Source: Planctomyces sp. SH-PL62
Lineage (GTDB): Bacteria > Planctomycetota > Planctomycetia > Planctomycetales > Planctomycetaceae
Assembly (NCBI GenBank): GCA_945893075.1
Contig: CAMDDX010000037.1
Coordinates: 1-33,742 of the forward strand
DNA: 33,742 nt
Reading direction: 5' to 3'
The position numbers and the translations under genes were made by a program. Shown in pieces: positions 19,857 through 26,332 of the stretch (within the stretch, counting starts at the first letter, position 1; each line of letters begins with the position of its first letter). The notes beneath the pieces are model-generated. The model made no database searches. It was not told the origin of the DNA and saw only the letters and a list, made by a program, of their open reading frames with translations.

Positions 19857-20745
19857 GATCACTCGCCCGGCGGCGGTGGCTGGTGACGACATCGAGGACG
19901 ATAAAGCTGCGCCTGCGGCTGACGAGCGGCAATTCGTGATCAACGAAGAGCAGTTCGATCAGATGGTGTTTCAGGGGGTGCAACGCGGGGCGCGCGCGGT
20001 GAATCCGGTGCAACTCGTTCAGGGAGCGAGTGGGAGCCAGCGGACTGTCATCGCGGTGAATACTCCTGAGAAGAACTTTCGACAGCGTATGGAAAATGTC
20101 GTGGCTATCGAGATTCAAGCGATCGGTGGCCGTGTGTCGCTTACGGACGCTCAAAAGAAAAAACTGATGCTGGCCGCACGCGGCGACATTGCAAGGGTCG
20201 TCGATCGTGCGGCGGAACTGCGTCCCAAGGTGACGTCGAAGCCGATGAATCAGCAGGAGTACGTCGCGCTCATGCGGGAAATGCAATCGCTGCGAATGTC
20301 ACAGCAGTTTGGCATCATTGGCGAGAACTCGCTGTTCCGGAAGACTCTGCGACACAGTCTGACCGACGAGCAGCGATTGCGATGGCAGGCACTCGAACGC
20401 GAACGGCAAAAAGCCATCATCGAAACCGCGATCGAGGATTGGGGGCGGATGGCCGTTGACTTCAAGTTGGCGGACGAGGTCCGGCAGAAGTTCACCGATT
20501 TGATCTTGGATCATGGCCGACTGCCGCAGAACGTCGCCTCATACGGGCGATACATCGTATTGCTCGAAGCCAACCTGCTTCGCGATCGTGTGAAGCCGCT
20601 GCTGACCGAAGACGAATGGCACGACTTTGAATGGCTCGTCGGCCAAGCAAAAAAAGAGGTGCCAACGCTCGAAAGTTACGGGCTGTGGACCGCGCGGCGA
20701 TCCAAGATCAGCGATGACGAGGCTGGTGACGAGTCGAAGGACTGA
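19756..20745 (+). CDS. Exported paralogue 4 of the QKKKL/AARGD cluster
   Basis: A 329-aa protein starting at the ATG at 19756. The signal core is LLVFVALSWLLITRPAAVAG, followed by an acidic stretch (DDIEDD). Shared blocks are RQFVINEEQFDQMVFQG, SLTDAQKKKLMLAARGD, MREMQSLRMSQQFG, SLFRKTLRHSLTDEQRLRW, YIVLLEANLLRDRVKPLL and an acidic tail. It is closest to paralogues 2 and 3. The stop TGA overlaps the start of paralogue 5 by one base. A structural or chaperone-like role in the envelope is a guess; no catalytic motif is visible. Confidence 0.8.
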   Translation: MLQNKHQLGMTSRCGTRRHWRGSLLVFVALSWLLITRPAAVAGDDIEDDKAAPAADERQFVINEEQFDQMVFQGVQRGARAVNPVQLVQGASGSQRTVIAVNTPEKNFRQRMENVVAIEIQAIGGRVSLTDAQKKKLMLAARGDIARVVDRAAELRPKVTSKPMNQQEYVALMREMQSLRMSQQFGIIGENSLFRKTLRHSLTDEQRLRWQALERERQKAIIETAIEDWGRMAVDFKLADEVRQKFTDLILDHGRLPQNVASYGRYIVLLEANLLRDRVKPLLTEDEWHDFEWLVGQAKKEVPTLESYGLWTARRSKISDDEAGDESKD

Positions 20746-21887
20746 TGATGAGGCATTTGTTGGAACAACCTGACGCGGCATCTCAATCAGCACAACGCGC
20801 CAGTGTTGATGTTGCGCCTTGGCAGCCCCAATGGGGCGACAATACGACAGCCCAGGGCAACGCCCTGGGTGGCTGTGCCATTCAAAAGCCTGAAGCCCTG
20901 AAGGGGCGAAATAACGCTCGCACACAAACTTGTCTCGCCCCTTCAGGGCTTTTAGGCATCTGTGGTGCGCCAACCCAGGGCGTTGCCCTGGGCTGGCTTA
21001 TTGCTGCCCCGTTGGGGCGGAACCGCATTTGTGCAACTTCCAAACTTGCGCTTCGCGCTGGAGTGGTGGCGGTCCTGGCGCTGACGTGGATGCTCGGTGT
21101 TGGGCCGGCGGTTAAGGCTCAGGACGACGACGACGATCCGCCGGCGGAAGCGGTCTTGGGCCGAGGCCAAGTTCAGAATTTCGAGATGCCAGAGAATCAG
21201 TTCGACCAGTGGGTCTTTCAGAATTTCCCGACGGCAGCCGCGGCACGGAAGAAGCTGGATCAGATGCTGTCGCTGCAAATGGACGACGTGGATCGGGCGT
21301 GTCAGCTTTCGGAGGTTCAGAAGAAGAAACTGCAACTGGCCGGACGCGGCGACATGGTGCATTTCTTCGAGCAGGTCGAGGTCGTCCGCAAGAAGTTCCT
21401 GTTGGTGCGCAAAGACCAGCAGAAGTTCAACGAGATTTGGCAGGACATCTCGCCGCTGCAAGTGAAGTTTCAAGCGGGGTTGTTTAGTGACGACTCGTTT
21501 TATCACAAGACGCTGCGAAACATGCTCAAGGGGGAGCAGCTCTCGAAGTACTCGCAAATCGACGGCGAGCGGCGGAAGTTTCAGTACCGGGCGAAGGTTG
21601 AGTTGGTCGTGGCGATGCTCGAAAATGCTCTGCCGTTGCGCGACGAGCAGCGGCAGAAAGTCATCACGCTGATCGTCGAAGAAACCAAACCGCCCCGCAG
21701 CTTCGGCCAGCAGCAGGATTACTACATCGTGATGTGGAACATCTCGAAGATCCCGGAGAAGACGCTCAAGCCGCTGTTCACGGACGCGGAGTGGAAAGTC
21801 TTGAATCAGCAGTTCGCTCAGGTGCGCGGGCTGGAACAGTGGCTGAAGCAGAGCGGGGCGCTGGCGAAGGATGAGGTGGAAGAATGA
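20745..21887 (+). CDS. Exported paralogue 5, with a palindromic repeat read in frame at its N-terminus
   Basis: A 380-aa frame. Residues from about 100 onward look like the other paralogues: a signal-like hydrophobic stretch LRAGVVAVLALTWMLGVGPA ending at VKA (about residue 125), then FDQWVFQNF, LSEVQKKKLQLAGRGD, SFYHKTLRNMLKGEQLSKY and YYIVMWNISKIPEKTLKPLF. Residues ~26-92 are encoded by an inserted composite palindromic element. No acceptable start codon lies between the element and the signal stretch. So either the protein is made from ATG 20745/20748 (AAGGA just upstream) with a ~95-residue leader before the hydrophobic segment, or its export is impaired. The stop overlaps the next gene as ATGA, so coupling is kept. 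Confidence 0.75.
   Translation: MMRHLLEQPDAASQSAQRASVDVAPWQPQWGDNTTAQGNALGGCAIQKPEALKGRNNARTQTCLAPSGLLGICGAPTQGVALGWLIAAPLGRNRICATSKLALRAGVVAVLALTWMLGVGPAVKAQDDDDDPPAEAVLGRGQVQNFEMPENQFDQWVFQNFPTAAAARKKLDQMLSLQMDDVDRACQLSEVQKKKLQLAGRGDMVHFFEQVEVVRKKFLLVRKDQQKFNEIWQDISPLQVKFQAGLFSDDSFYHKTLRNMLKGEQLSKYSQIDGERRKFQYRAKVELVVAMLENALPLRDEQRQKVITLIVEETKPPRSFGQQQDYYIVMWNISKIPEKTLKPLFTDAEWKVLNQQFAQVRGLEQWLKQSGALAKDEVEE
20821..21020. repeat. Composite three-tier palindromic element, copy 1
   Basis: Three nested inverted pairs share one centre. The outer pair is 20825-20837 / 21006-21018 (GCCCCAATGGGGC facing GCCCCGTTGGGGC). The middle pair is 20848-20870 / 20973-20995, perfect over 23 bp, with core CCCAGGGCAACGCCCTGGG. 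The inner pair is 20893-20909 / 20935-20951, perfect over 17 bp. The outer and middle blocks are also self-palindromic. The element lies inside the coding frame of paralogue 5. A second copy is at 25927-26130. Confidence 0.92.
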
Positions 21888-22966
21888 GCCAATTTCAAAT
21901 TTCAAATTTCAAATTTCAAATTTCAAATGCATTGGTCATTGGGATTTGGTTCTTGGGATTTACCGCTTCGGTCGCGGCTCAGCCTCCCAACGCACGCATC
22001 GGCGAAGTCGTCCCGCGCGATGTGCGGGAGATGTACGATCGCGGTTTGCAGTATCTCGCGACGACGCAGTCGGAAAACGGTGATTGGACAGGCGGTGGCG
22101 GCGAGCAAGGGCCGGGGGTCACGGGATTGGGATTGATGGTGTTTCTGGCTTCGGGGGAAGACCCGAACTTCGGGCTGTACAGCAATCATGTGCGGAAGGC
22201 GTGCCGCAGCATCATCACGCAGCAGAACGCGACCACGGGGATTCTCGGCGGCAGCATGTATCACCCCGGCTTCGGCATGTTGGGCTTGGCCGAGGCTTAT
22301 GGGGCGGTCGATGACCGCAATCTCTGGCCGGAAGGGAAAGGAAAGGATCAACGCTCGATTGGAGCCGCGCTGGAGTTGGCGGTGCGCGCGGCGATCACCT
22401 CGCAGAAGAAAAATCCGACGGGAGCGTGGCGGTACTCGCCTGACGCGACGGATGCGGACACCTCGGTCAGTGGAGCGATCTTGGTTGGGTTGCTGGCGTC
22501 GCGGAATGCCGGCATTGAGATCCCCGACGAGTCCATCGACAAGGCGATTTCGTACTACACCAAGATGACGGCCGCATCGGGACAGGTCGCTTACGCAGGT
22601 GGCATCGGCGGGTTCGATGAATCGCTGGCTCGCATTTCGATCGCCACGCTCGTGTACGCGGTTGCTCGGCGGAAAGACCTGCCGCAGTACAAGGCGACGC
22701 TGGGGTATCTCGTCAACAAGTGGGAATTCACCGGGCCGTCCGGTTTCGGTTGGATGGAGTATCAGCGCTACTATCAAGCTCAGGCGTTGTTCCAAGGGGA
22801 CGTCGAGACTTGGGAGAAATGGAACAAGCTGTTGATTCGCCAATTCAAAGCGCAGCAACTCCCCGACGGCAGCTTCAAAGGCCAGTTCGGTCCGGCGACT
22901 TCGACCACCTTGTCGTTGCTGGCTGTCGCGCTGAATTACCGGTTTCTGCCGATTTATGAACGATGA
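21884..22966 (+). CDS. Exported squalene-cyclase/prenyltransferase-like repeat protein
   Basis: A 360-aa protein. After a signal segment (ALVIGIWFLGFTASVAA) it shows alpha/alpha-toroid repeats like those of prenyltransferase/squalene-cyclase proteins: ENGDWTGGGG, GVTGLGLMVFLASG, GAWRYSPDATDADTSVSGA and QLPDGSFKGQFGPATSTTLS. Planctomycetes have many such exported toroids. The catalytic DDTA/DCTAE-type acid motif of true cyclases is not evident, so a binding or structural role is more likely than terpene cyclisation. ATG 21884 overlaps the previous stop by 4 bp and has GAGG upstream. The first 15 residues (QFQISNFKFQISN region) come from a 7-bp tandem repeat that forms the front of the signal peptide. 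Confidence 0.82.
   Translation: MSQFQISNFKFQISNALVIGIWFLGFTASVAAQPPNARIGEVVPRDVREMYDRGLQYLATTQSENGDWTGGGGEQGPGVTGLGLMVFLASGEDPNFGLYSNHVRKACRSIITQQNATTGILGGSMYHPGFGMLGLAEAYGAVDDRNLWPEGKGKDQRSIGAALELAVRAAITSQKKNPTGAWRYSPDATDADTSVSGAILVGLLASRNAGIEIPDESIDKAISYYTKMTAASGQVAYAGGIGGFDESLARISIATLVYAVARRKDLPQYKATLGYLVNKWEFTGPSGFGWMEYQRYYQAQALFQGDVETWEKWNKLLIRQFKAQQLPDGSFKGQFGPATSTTLSLLAVALNYRFLPIYER
21891..21925. repeat. AATTTCA heptamer array in the signal-peptide coding region
   Basis: Five perfect tandem copies of AATTTCA start 7 nt after the ATG of the squalene-cyclase-like gene. Read in frame they give alternating Phe/Gln/Ile/Ser/Asn/Lys residues. Because 7 is not a multiple of 3, gain or loss of one copy shifts the frame of the whole gene. 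A short related fragment (CTGAAAT twice, 23056-23069) lies in the next intergenic gap. Confidence 0.92.
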
Positions 22967-23082
22967 ACACAGGCGGCAGGCGAAAAATGGAGGGCGGAAA
23001 ATCAAAACACGACTGCAACCGCCTGGTCTTTCTCCCCACATTTGTCGCCAGCCTTCTGAAATCTGAAATCTGGACCCGATCC

Positions 23083-25905
23083 ATGAAACGACTTGCGCTG
23101 TTGGTTTGGTTGTTCGCGTGCGTGCCGGCCTTCGGTGCGGACGAAGCCGTCCTACATTTGACTAACGGCGGTTTCGTTCCGGGCGAACTGAAAGGTTCGG
23201 AGCAGCCCAGCGTCTTGCGTTGGCAATCGTCGCGGTTCACTCAGCCGTTTGAGTTCTCGCTGGGCGGCGTGACCGCGGTGCAGTATGTGATCCCGTCGAA
23301 GTTGCCCAAGCCGACGGGTGAGTACTGTCTCGAACTCGCGGCCGGTGATGTGCTCTTCGGTGAATTGCTGGCTCTGACGGATGACGCGGCGGAAGTGGAA
23401 GTCGCGCGGCTGGGACGGTTGCACGTCAAGCGGGACCAGATCCGGCGACTGTATCGTTGGAGCAGCGGTGCCGATTTGATTTATCTCGGCCCCAGTGGTT
23501 TGACTGAATGGAAAGAAACCTCGGCCACCAAGCTCTGGCGAGAAGAAGGGGGCCAGCCGGTCACGGACCAAGAGGGAGCCAACATTCGTGGCGACTTCGG
23601 CATCCCGGCTCAGGCGATTATCGAGTTTGAGATCGCCTGGAAGAACAAGCCGGACTTCGTGTTCGCGCTAGGGGTCAACGACGCCGACGACGAGTCCGTC
23701 TTCAAACGCGCGTTTCGGTTCGAGACCTGGGACAACGAGTTGGTCGTACGCTGCGAACTCGGTCGTGAAGCGGACGTCGATTCGGTTCAAGAGACGAAGG
23801 CCGGCGCGGGCCGGGCACATTTCCTGGCGTATCTGGATCAAGAGAAGGGCCGGCTGCTGGTCTATTCGCCCAGCGGCACGCCGCGCGGTGAGATCAACGT
23901 CACGCCGCGCAAGCCGCAGGTTCACTCCGGCCTGCGATTGACCAACAAGCGCGGCGACGTCCGGCTGGAACGGCTGCGGATCAGCCGCTGGAACGGAGTG
24001 CCTCCGCGCGAAGTGCAGGCAGACAAGTCGCGGCTGCACCGCACCGACGGCTCGTTCGTGTATGGCCAACTGAGCGGGTTCGATGCCGGCAAGAAGCAAT
24101 TCACCGTGCGCGATGGCAACGACGAAACGCAGGTCGCCGCCGATCAGATCGCCAGCGTGTTTCTCTCGCCGCCGGATGACGAAGCCTCGCGCGCGTTCCG
24201 AGCGGTCTATCTGGACGGCACGCGGCTGAGCGGCGAACTCACGAGCATCGCTGACGACCATCTGCGGCTGACGAACCCTGCGATCCAAGAACCGCTGCGA
24301 TTGCCACTGTCAGAGCTGCGCTCGTTGGCCGTTGTGAATCGTGAGAAGTATTCCATCGCTGGCACGCCCGAAGGTCGCTCCGGCCGGTTGGAGGCGGACG
24401 GTTTGCGACTGCACGGCCGGCTGACGAACGGCCGCGAAAAATTGGATGCGAGCTGCCTTGTGTGGCATCCCGACTTCAGTGCCACCGCCAGCCCGTTGCG
24501 CACCGGCGTCTCCGGTCGCATCGTCTATCGCGATCCACCGCCGCCGAAGCCCAAGGTCGTGCAGCAACAACAGCCGCAGCCGCAACCGGTCGGCTTCGCG
24601 GATGCCTTTTTGAAAGCTCTGGCCGGCGGACCGAACGCCGCCGCGCCAGCAGCCGCGATCGGCAAACGCACGATGCACCTCCGCAGCGGAGACACGATTC
24701 CGTGTGAGGTCACCAAGATCACCGAGGAAGGGGTCAACTTCAAAACGAATCTGTCTGACGCGACGTTCGTGCCGCACGACAAAGTCAAAGCCGTGGAGCT
24801 GTCCGTCGTCGATGGACCGCCGAAGCTCAACAAGACGAAACGCGAACGGCTGTTGACGCTGCCGCGTATGCAACGCGACTCGCCACCGACGCAGTTGATC
24901 CGCTCCAAGAGCGGCGACTTTCTGCGCGGGCGGATCATCGACATGGATGATCTGGAACTGCGTCTCGAAGTCCGTATCGAGACGAAGAAGATTCCGCGCG
25001 ATCGCATCTCGCAGATCATTTGGTTTCATCCGGATGAACTGACAGATTCTGCGAACGCGACTGGCGAGCGGGGTGGCGTCAGCCCCCCGGTGAATTTGCC
25101 AGCGGATTCATCGCCGGACAACCGAGGGGCTGATCCGCCGCAGCGGACCCCGCTCGCCAAGAGCGTGGGGCCGACTCGCGTGCAGGCGTTGCGCAGTGAC
25201 GGCATCCGGCTGACGTTTTTTCCCGATCAATTCGCCGACAAGGCTCTGTCCGGCAAGAGTGACGTGCTGGGCAATTGCCGAACGGAAGTGGAACAAGTCG
25301 ATCAACTGCTGATTGGTGTCGAGATCGAAAAGTCGGCAGCGGATCTGGCCTATCATCGTTGGAAGCTGCACCGCGCGGTCGAACCCAAGATCGCGCAGGA
25401 CGTGGATGGTTCGAATCCTGACGGCCGCGCGCCGGGCATCGAATCGCCGTTGGTTGGCAAGCCGGCACCGGACTTCAATCTCGAACTGCTGGGCAGCGGC
25501 GGCAAAAAGTTTCATCTGGCCGATCAGAAGGGGAAGGTGATCGTCCTCGACTTTTGGGCAACGTGGTGCGGGCCATGTCTGCAAACAATGCCGCTGGTCG
25601 ACAAGGTGGTTCACGAGTTTGAAGGCGACGGCGTGCAATTGATCGCCGTCAACTTGGAAGAGCCGGCCAAAGCGATCACCGCGATGTTGGAACGCCATAA
25701 GCTGCAATTGACCGTCGCGATGGATATCGACGGCGTGGCCGCGACGAAGTACCAGGCCAACGCCATTCCGCAAACGGTCATCATCGACCGTGAGGGCAAA
25801 GTCGCGCGACTGTTCGTCGGTGGCGGAGCGAAGCTGGCGGATCAATTGCGCGACGCTCTGCGCGAAGTGCTGACCGGCGGACCGCCGGCGAAGTCGCCAC
25901 AATGA
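23083..25905 (+). CDS. Exported multi-repeat protein with C-terminal TlpA-like thioredoxin domain
   Basis: A 940-aa protein starting at ATG 23083 with signal peptide MKRLALLVWLFACVPAFGA. The body has about six modules of an L.xGxxxxGxL...V pattern (for example LHRTDGSFVYGQLSGF, YLDGTRLSGELTSI, LRSGDTIPCEVTKI and IRSKSGDFLRGRIIDM), suggesting small beta-barrel repeats. The C-terminus (about 790-930) is a TlpA/AhpC-type thioredoxin fold with WCGPC at 828-832 and a cis-Pro segment AIPQTVIID. It is probably a disulfide reductase or oxidase outside the cytoplasm; the partner is unknown. Residues ~661-693 come from an in-frame inverted repeat between the beta modules. The 116-bp gap before it (22967-23082) holds short repeat fragments only, and the ribosome site is weak. 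Confidence 0.85.
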   Translation: MKRLALLVWLFACVPAFGADEAVLHLTNGGFVPGELKGSEQPSVLRWQSSRFTQPFEFSLGGVTAVQYVIPSKLPKPTGEYCLELAAGDVLFGELLALTDDAAEVEVARLGRLHVKRDQIRRLYRWSSGADLIYLGPSGLTEWKETSATKLWREEGGQPVTDQEGANIRGDFGIPAQAIIEFEIAWKNKPDFVFALGVNDADDESVFKRAFRFETWDNELVVRCELGREADVDSVQETKAGAGRAHFLAYLDQEKGRLLVYSPSGTPRGEINVTPRKPQVHSGLRLTNKRGDVRLERLRISRWNGVPPREVQADKSRLHRTDGSFVYGQLSGFDAGKKQFTVRDGNDETQVAADQIASVFLSPPDDEASRAFRAVYLDGTRLSGELTSIADDHLRLTNPAIQEPLRLPLSELRSLAVVNREKYSIAGTPEGRSGRLEADGLRLHGRLTNGREKLDASCLVWHPDFSATASPLRTGVSGRIVYRDPPPPKPKVVQQQQPQPQPVGFADAFLKALAGGPNAAAPAAAIGKRTMHLRSGDTIPCEVTKITEEGVNFKTNLSDATFVPHDKVKAVELSVVDGPPKLNKTKRERLLTLPRMQRDSPPTQLIRSKSGDFLRGRIIDMDDLELRLEVRIETKKIPRDRISQIIWFHPDELTDSANATGERGGVSPPVNLPADSSPDNRGADPPQRTPLAKSVGPTRVQALRSDGIRLTFFPDQFADKALSGKSDVLGNCRTEVEQVDQLLIGVEIEKSAADLAYHRWKLHRAVEPKIAQDVDGSNPDGRAPGIESPLVGKPAPDFNLELLGSGGKKFHLADQKGKVIVLDFWATWCGPCLQTMPLVDKVVHEFEGDGVQLIAVNLEEPAKAITAMLERHKLQLTVAMDIDGVAATKYQANAIPQTVIIDREGKVARLFVGGGAKLADQLRDALREVLTGGPPAKSPQ
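25062..25159. repeat. In-frame inverted repeat inside the TlpA-fusion gene
   Basis: Perfect 13-bp outer arms (TGGCGAGCGGGGT at 25062-25074, complement at 25147-25159) enclose inner arms at 25079-25091 / 25121-25133 with one mismatch. It encodes a Gly/Pro/Ser/Asp-rich linker (GGVSPPVNLPADSSPDNRGA) with no stop. A fragment, GGCGAGCGGGGCGG, recurs at about 27333-27346 between two convergent genes, as expected of a dispersed repeat family. Confidence 0.88.
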
Positions 25906-26332
25906 GCGAGACGTCGATTGTGATGTTTGCGCTTTGGCCCGAAGGGTCATCACTCGAAAGCCCAGGGCAACGCCCTGGGTCACAGAAGTCGCGGACTCTC
26001 AAGCCCTGAAAGGGCGGCACTCTCTTCGATTGTTTGTTTCGCCCTTTCAGGGCTTTGGCTTTTTTTGAGATCGAAAACCCAGGGCGTTGCCCTGGGCTTT
26101 CGAGTCGCGACCCTTCGGGCCGAAGCGCAAGACTTAATCTGAGTCCCAATAGACATTTCATCGACGACCGCGCTTCGGAATTCGGCAGGCGCAGATTCTG
26201 CCGTCGAGATTCCATGCGGATGCTGGGAAGAGCTTGCCGATTGAAACAGTTGGATCACTGTCGGCTGCGGATGCGCTGCCGGTGATGCTCGCCGAGGTAA
26301 TCCAGGCAAGTTGGCCAAGGAAGGTTCGAGAC
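25906..26332. other. 427-bp intergenic region holding composite element copy 2
   Basis: Nearly half of this gap is the palindromic element at 25927-26130. The rest (26131-26332) shows no convincing gene; an open frame beginning at TTG 26234 runs into the next gene but has no ribosome site or signal peptide of its own. A promoter for the next gene may lie here, but I cannot identify one. Confidence 0.6.
25927..26130. repeat. Composite three-tier palindromic element, copy 2
   Basis: Same architecture as 20821-21020. Outer arms are 25927-25948 / 26109-26130 (22 nt, one mismatch). Middle arms are 25952-25980 / 26077-26105, perfect over 29 bp, with the identical 19-nt core CCCAGGGCAACGCCCTGGG. 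Inner arms are 26001-26016 / 26040-26055, perfect over 16 bp. The core is invariant between the copies, while the outer arms differ in sequence but still pair. Confidence 0.93.

Follow-up and report, generated by a model that had tools for sequence, protein, structure and literature searches.

Inverted three-hairpin elements in a Planctomyces sp. SH-PL62 contig and their likeness to the ends of an IS200-type transposon

The two window elements and their dispersed family

The window analysed here, a stretch of 33,742 nucleotides (nt) from Planctomyces sp. SH-PL62 (contig CAMDDX010000037.1 of assembly GCA_945893075.1, positions 1 to 33,742), contains two intergenic elements, copy 1 and copy 2, each made of an end module with an outer, a middle and an inner hairpin that is repeated in inverse order on the other side of a common centre. 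Both adjoin genes of the same strand, the upstream neighbours being open reading frames (ORFs) that end at 20745 (copy 1) and at 25905 (copy 2). An earlier note on this DNA had described the elements, at 20821-21020 and 25927-26130, as nested outer, middle and inner inverted pairs around a palindromic core of 19 nt. The arms do lie there, 89% complementary in copy 1 (20825-20870 with 20973-21018) and 93% complementary in copy 2 (25927-25980 with 26077-26130), and the core is present in both copies, at four sites in the window as against 0.23 expected (none of 100 shuffled sequences reached four). The architecture had thus been placed correctly, but the limits of copy 2 were slightly short: conservation among nine copies of family A, the dispersed group to which copy 2 belongs, reaches past the outer hairpins to an approximate boundary read from ungapped columns. 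The features are as follows.

20812 to 20909, forward strand: left end module of copy 1, with outer hairpin 20825-20837, middle hairpin 20851-20869 and inner hairpin 20895-20907
20935 to 21031, reverse strand: right end module of copy 1, inverted, with inner hairpin 20937-20949, middle hairpin 20974-20992 and outer hairpin 21006-21018
25923 to 26017, forward strand: left end module of copy 2, with outer hairpin 25936-25948, ACTCGA tag 25952-25957, middle hairpin 25961-25979 and inner hairpin 26003-26015
26039 to 26134, reverse strand: right end module of copy 2, inverted, with inner hairpin 26041-26053, middle hairpin 26078-26096, TCGAGT tag 26100-26105 and outer hairpin 26109-26121
25916 to 26151, strand not assigned: approximate full extent of copy 2, with right end CCCAATA at 26145-26151

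Model R1, whose alignment includes both copies, scores the left and right modules at 71.2 bits (E 2e-15) and 70 bits in copy 1, and at 79.8 and 85.9 bits in copy 2.

The host genome (7.57 Mb in 484 contigs) contains 150 sites of the core at no more than one mismatch, compared with none for a reversed control pattern, and 56 exact pairs of cores spaced 82-112 nt apart, so the further genomic copies on which the earlier note had made its proposal depend do exist. Fifty of the 56 pairs, together with eight further sites, were compared; having been selected by an exact middle core, they are little informative about the middle stem. The copies form about three families (A, B and C), distinguished by the inner hairpin and the core loop, and automatic labels, which misplace a few mutated copies, assign 9 of the 50 to A, 23 to B and 14 to C and leave 4 unclear. 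Three copies are mixed: in L042 the outer ends are of family B and the core is of the family C type, in L077 the left end is A-type and the right one C-type, and in L057 an inner-type hairpin occupies an outer position, which suggests exchange of modules between families. Many family B copies (L025, L053, L054 and others) have an extra hairpin-like piece of the CCGGCCTTCCGG type beyond the outer hairpin, possibly a fourth tier, and the left outer hairpin of L066 is tandemly repeated (GTGTGTGTTGGCCCCAACGGGGC units).

Pairing within hairpins and between arms

In the inner stem, the earlier note had taken a G-C pair in copy 1 (20903-20941) and an A-T pair in copy 2 (26011-26045) for a compensatory change. 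The letters are correct; the compensation is not borne out. Among the 13 copies with T-type inner hairpins on both sides, this position is A/A in seven, A/G in five and G/G only in window copy 1, and independent drift of the two sides predicts 6.94, 5.12 and 0.94. Nor are the left and right arms held complementary over the 50 copies, in 17 of which the inner arms are identical and in 33 of which they differ. The outer arms are identical in none, with 3-15 differences per 26 nt in an ungapped count, the higher values of which are exaggerated by shifts of a single base. For the inner arms, 566 of 650 positions agree, as against a mean of 561.4 (560-566) when partners are permuted within their class; 47 of 1000 permutations reach 566, and apart from this marginal excess no correlated changes of the arms were found over the 50 copies, so that arm-to-arm covariation was rejected.

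Each local hairpin, by contrast, covaries. In the inner hairpin 498 of 500 local pairs are Watson-Crick or G-T, and the 464 Watson-Crick pairs exceed the maximum of 452 obtained over 1000 permutations. In a set of 42 end modules from 21 loci, brought to one orientation and hand-picked for diversity, 99.2% of the cells of the three local hairpins are paired, 47 cells are changed on both sides, and the covariation score is 0.210 compared with 0.060 after shuffling, all of these being values that none of 500 shuffles reached; slid versions of the hairpin alignment score at most 0.036. Both members are changed in six local pairs, a number attained in 15 of 500 shuffles, and a second, weaker measure of local covariation is reached by 8 of 500. 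The signal is carried by the outer and inner stems, since most rows were selected with a pattern that dictated the middle stem. A change compensated inside its own hairpin occurs in the left core of L075, whose right core has the common sequence. The fifth inner pair is T-G in 31 cases and C-A in none, so that G-T pairs favour the strand read inward, contrary to the order of tag and then hairpin, like that of repetitive extragenic palindromes (REPs), which points to the outward strand.

The claim that structure is conserved beyond sequence thus stands for each local hairpin but not for the left arm against the right, and the independent drift that the earlier note had named as grounds for abandoning its proposal is seen in arm-to-arm pairing and not in the local stems. 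Selection acts on a set of local hairpins, each "arm" being itself a hairpin. As covariation between the two arms is not supported, a large cruciform or the copying of both arms from one template, which had been offered as causes, is unsupported.

A gene-bearing copy and its probable short relatives

Eight matches to Y1 transposases were found in the host genome, seven of them above the cut-off, and one lies centrally in a copy of the element, L016 (contained in L083). The gene (1483-1938, 151 amino acids (aa)) is located between inner hairpins at 1441-1453 and 1950-1962, outside which are middle hairpins (1396-1415 and 1988-2007) and outer hairpins (1371-1383 and 2020-2032), the two ends being inverted. 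The protein scores 78.5 bits against Pfam PF01797 (Y1_Tnp; cut-off 23), passes the NCBIfam IS200 model NF033573 narrowly, by 2.4 bits (57.4; cut-off 55), and has profile matches to TnpA structures including that of ISHp608. Thus, L016 has both characteristics of the IS200/IS605 family that were looked for, a Y1 HUH transposase over the cut-offs and subterminal hairpins at both ends, and it is likely the autonomous form. A linked REP-associated tyrosine transposase (RAYT) had been anticipated in the earlier note; a Y1 HUH gene is indeed present at the centre of one copy, but it is of IS200 type and fails the RAYT model (30.8 bits; cut-off 80). In an alignment of 21 proteins the residues Y, Q, H, H and W, Q are invariant in all 21 and DHVH is nearly so.

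Gene-bearing copies were also found in two relatives within the genus, G007 and G010 (L116 and L117, protein 95% identical), and their outer hairpins resemble family C. The short copy L070, with its spacers included, matches L117 at 86.6% over 97 nt at one end and at 81.7% over 93 nt at the other. The window copies have three-tier ends like those of L016; end-to-end homology is shown for L070 and family C.

Site occupancy changes between relatives. The DNA to either side of copy 2 is collinear with that of G010 and G003, with gaps of 117 nt as against 283 nt and of 156 nt as against 289 nt, and the DNA to either side of copy 1 with that of G009 (gap 63 nt as against 276 nt); there is no R1 match in any of the three. 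A single end module is present at the place of copy 2 in G007, near a contig end. At the copy 1 site G010 has a different three-tier element, which scores 41.8 and 27.4 bits with R1 and is over the 37-bit gathering threshold of the Rfam family RF01687 (Acido-Lenti-1) at both ends (41.2 and 39.5 bits). The remaining relatives are uninformative, since the sequences that flank copy 2 are not neighbours in them. In G003 and G007 the gap that matches window positions 20750-21117 (L195, L197) contains another inverted repeat, CCACCGAG..CTCGGTGG with GGGCCTTTGCACTACG, and the sub-threshold Rfam microRNA matches there are probably chance hairpins.

A match to the L016 transposase at E 0.001 is present in 60 of 119 relatives. 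The 12 genomes of the genus contain at least 150, 127, 87, 79, 68, 33, 17, 10, 7, 6, 0 and 0 R1 modules; the eight with a transposase match have from 6 to at least 150, compared with 0, 0, 7 and 10 in the four that lack one (exact Mann-Whitney p 0.016). The number of modules also correlates with that of transposase matches (Spearman 0.75, p 0.005), shared ancestry being ignored in both tests.

The window copies are dispersed, gene-less and different in position between relatives, as miniature inverted-repeat transposable elements (MITEs) would be. They are very probably non-autonomous, MITE-like relatives of an IS200-type transposon that has three local hairpins at each end, in which case the arm-to-arm palindrome would be a by-product of the same end type being present on both sides. 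The transposon consists of two three-hairpin ends in inverse order around the 151-aa Y1 HUH transposase gene, and the short copies of the two ends back to back, with the gene absent. By analogy with the IS200/IS605 family, from which binding, strand choice and chemistry are borrowed, the transposase most likely recognises, in single-stranded DNA, the tagged hairpins at the two ends, and moves whatever lies between them, gene or not; the short copies would then have been moved in trans. They may possibly influence the host through termination or mRNA ends.

Three-hairpin ends are not confined to the genus. A detector of the order outer, middle, inner hairpin in the flanks of transposase genes found it on both sides, one side and no side of 25, 16 and 8 of the relatives' 49 loci (66 of 98 flanks; 22 of 980 when shuffled) and of 28, 25 and 24 of 77 named GTDB loci (81 of 154 flanks; 36 of 1540 when shuffled), and a stricter version applied to the relatives' loci gave 21, 22 and 6 (17 of 1960 shuffled flanks). 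Loci with short flanks are omitted from these counts (one of the relatives' 50 and three of the 80 named), some detections look spurious on inspection (L131 and L206, for example), and some loci are common to both sets (L119 is L205), here as in the test of tags below. The order was found on both sides in records titled, among others, Planctomycetes, Verrucomicrobiaceae, Fibrobacteres and Brocadiia, and on one side in others such as Hydrogenedentota, Kuenenia, Calditrichota and KSB1; the two loci titled Acidobacteria (L213, L237) have no three-hairpin order on either flank. The short tag that follows the outer hairpin is found again behind the inner hairpin at that end and differs between elements (ACTCG, ATTC, CCTAA and ACAG are examples), being ACTC/GAGT in the window and in most host copies. 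Outer and inner tags share at least 5 nt in 46 of 149 ends, compared with a mean of 10.3 and a largest value of 19 upon permutation. By comparison with the GTAG foot of REPs, the shared tag looks like a recognition signature.

Several observations weigh against the descent of the short copies from such a transposon. The other seven host Y1 matches (L017-L023, of which L017, L018 and L023 are near contig ends) show no core, inner or tag pattern of those sought in the retrieved DNA around them; family A, that of window copy 2, yielded no gene-bearing parent; and two genus genomes, G004 and G009, have 10 and 7 modules with no match to the L016 transposase. Three hairpins are lacking on both sides of 24 of the 77 named loci and 8 of the relatives' 49. 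One upstream-like and one downstream-like end are combined in 8 of the 11 copies of family C (one of them on a tie), in 16 of 27 other copies and in none of the 12 A-type copies; in 11 of these 12, it is the upstream end of the transposon that both ends resemble most. Movement itself was not seen, and because the collinear gaps have diverged, an exact empty site, boundary or target cannot be read in them.

Small-RNA matches, rival readings and known systems

The 46-nt model of RF01687 spans the middle hairpin, linker and outer hairpin of one end. Three halves of the window elements match it at 28.1, 24.8 and 22.5 bits, all under the gathering threshold, and the fourth has no match at E 1. In 20 stretches of the host genome all 33 Rfam matches at E 0.1 are to RF01687, with L016 (both ends, 42.6 and 37.5 bits), L026 (46.1 bits) and L045 (37.3 bits) over the threshold. 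Ten of 20 named transposase loci have a match at E 0.5, which is over the threshold beside the gene in L205, L230, L243 and L245. RF01687 was found in 66 of the 119 relatives (over the threshold in 54), namely in 54 of the 60 with a transposase match as against 12 of the 59 without, a contingency that assumes both searches covered the same 119 genomes; RF01687 is also present in 18 of 20 named genomes that have the transposase, in 15 of them over the threshold. A gene-less three-tier element in a metagenome-assembled genome titled Thermoanaerobaculum (L314) has RF01687 at both ends, facing outward.

In the 2010 paper on it, Acido-Lenti-1 is rated as probably an RNA and probably not cis-regulatory (PMC2864571), and the copies might accordingly be small RNAs that are transcribed, or hairpins in mRNAs, maintained because selection favours an RNA fold. 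The RF01687 matches, the compensatory changes in local stems and the intergenic position of both window copies beside same-strand genes agree with this, yet it is improbable, given many dispersed copies whose positions are unconserved between relatives and modules that occur in inverted pairs and at both ends of transposase genes; moreover, a single transcript of an inverted pair would read only one module in the G-T-tolerant direction. Classical REPs, or REP doublets forming hairpins (REPINs), mobilised by a RAYT would likewise be short tagged palindromes in inverted pairs in a genome with Y1 transposases, but are very improbable here, where there are three hairpins per end and the tag is ACTC/GAGT, not GTAG or CGTC; the REP/RAYT assignment was rejected on the score of the L016 protein, which falls under the RAYT cut-off yet passes the IS200 model. 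As to the earlier note's own reading, selection on one large nested cruciform or both arms made from one template, the inner arms of the window copies are perfectly complementary, with one base pair differing on both sides between copies, and inner-arm agreement is marginally above permutation; it is nonetheless extremely improbable, considering the inner arms that differ in 33 of the 50 copies and the outer arms that differ in all 50, the fit of position 20903/26011 to independence, and the change in L075 that is compensated within one hairpin.

The hairpins of IS608 lie on the same strand. Like IS608 and ISDra2 of the IS200/IS605 family, the elements described here have an HUH-Y1 transposase related to solved structures and hairpins near their ends, but in those systems each end is reported to have one small subterminal hairpin (PMC6006769), and here each has three, in inverse orientation at the two ends. 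TIRtrons or TIRYTs, in the main text on them (PMC3733652), are Y1 genes flanked by long terminal inverted repeats (TIRs), some of them self-complementary or "double palindromic", with single or dimeric copies dispersed, to which the Y1 gene between inverted ends in L016 and the 56 gene-less pairs are alike. The motif GGGGWSAS of many, though not all, TIRs is absent from the L016 ends and present in 1 of 50 short copies, and that text, its figures not being covered, does not mention three ordered hairpins per end. Of 26 TIRYTs, 20 are placed in TnpAY1 subclass 2.1 (PMC6006769). The proteins found here resemble subclass 1.2 in the motifs DH[IV]H, WQ and Y---Q--HH and in a length near 150 aa, an assignment made by motifs. 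Subclass 1.2 is reported to lack, in general, the terminal structures typical of IS200 and to occur mostly in Cyanobacteria and Bacteroidetes (PMC6006769), in contrast to the many members here that have three-hairpin inverted ends, in Planctomycetes and Verrucomicrobia. Class 3, with motifs NHVH and Y----Q (PMC6006769), was rejected, the proteins here having DHVH and Y---Q.

RF01687 is filed as a small RNA in Rfam and is found here in inverted pairs and beside transposase genes. Neither three-hairpin ends on subclass 1.2 genes nor a link to Acido-Lenti-1 is described in the consulted TIRtron and TnpAY1 text, the figures and supplements of which were not covered (PMC3733652, PMC6006769). A literature search with strings from the end sequences gave no match. 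The chances are about even that there is an unnamed, phylum-spanning class of IS200-type elements (subclass 1.2) with three-hairpin inverted ends and element-specific tags, whose gene-less copies are major intergenic palindromes in Planctomycetes and Verrucomicrobia, and of which Acido-Lenti-1 is an end module and not an RNA gene. If so, the transposition complex would need to differ from that of IS608, because the tagged hairpins are in inverse orientation at the two ends. For a widespread set of intergenic palindromes there would be a probable origin and a candidate enzyme; elaborate ends would be frequent in a transposase subclass that is said generally to lack them; and a curated small-RNA family might be better read as the ends of mobile DNA. 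The element-specific tags would also constitute a natural experiment on hairpin recognition by HUH transposases.

Around the window elements, the longest ORF at copy 1 (20745-21887) runs straight through the element; the true start of the downstream gene is probably near 21060 and the start of the ORF wrong, so that automatic annotation may carry a false N-terminus. Upstream of copy 2, positions 22963-25905 encode a 980-aa protein with a C-terminal AhpC-TSA/redoxin domain at residues 831-948 and no Pfam match at E 0.001 outside it. At the start of the ORF at 21884-22966 there is a short TTTCAAA tandem repeat (21891-21928).

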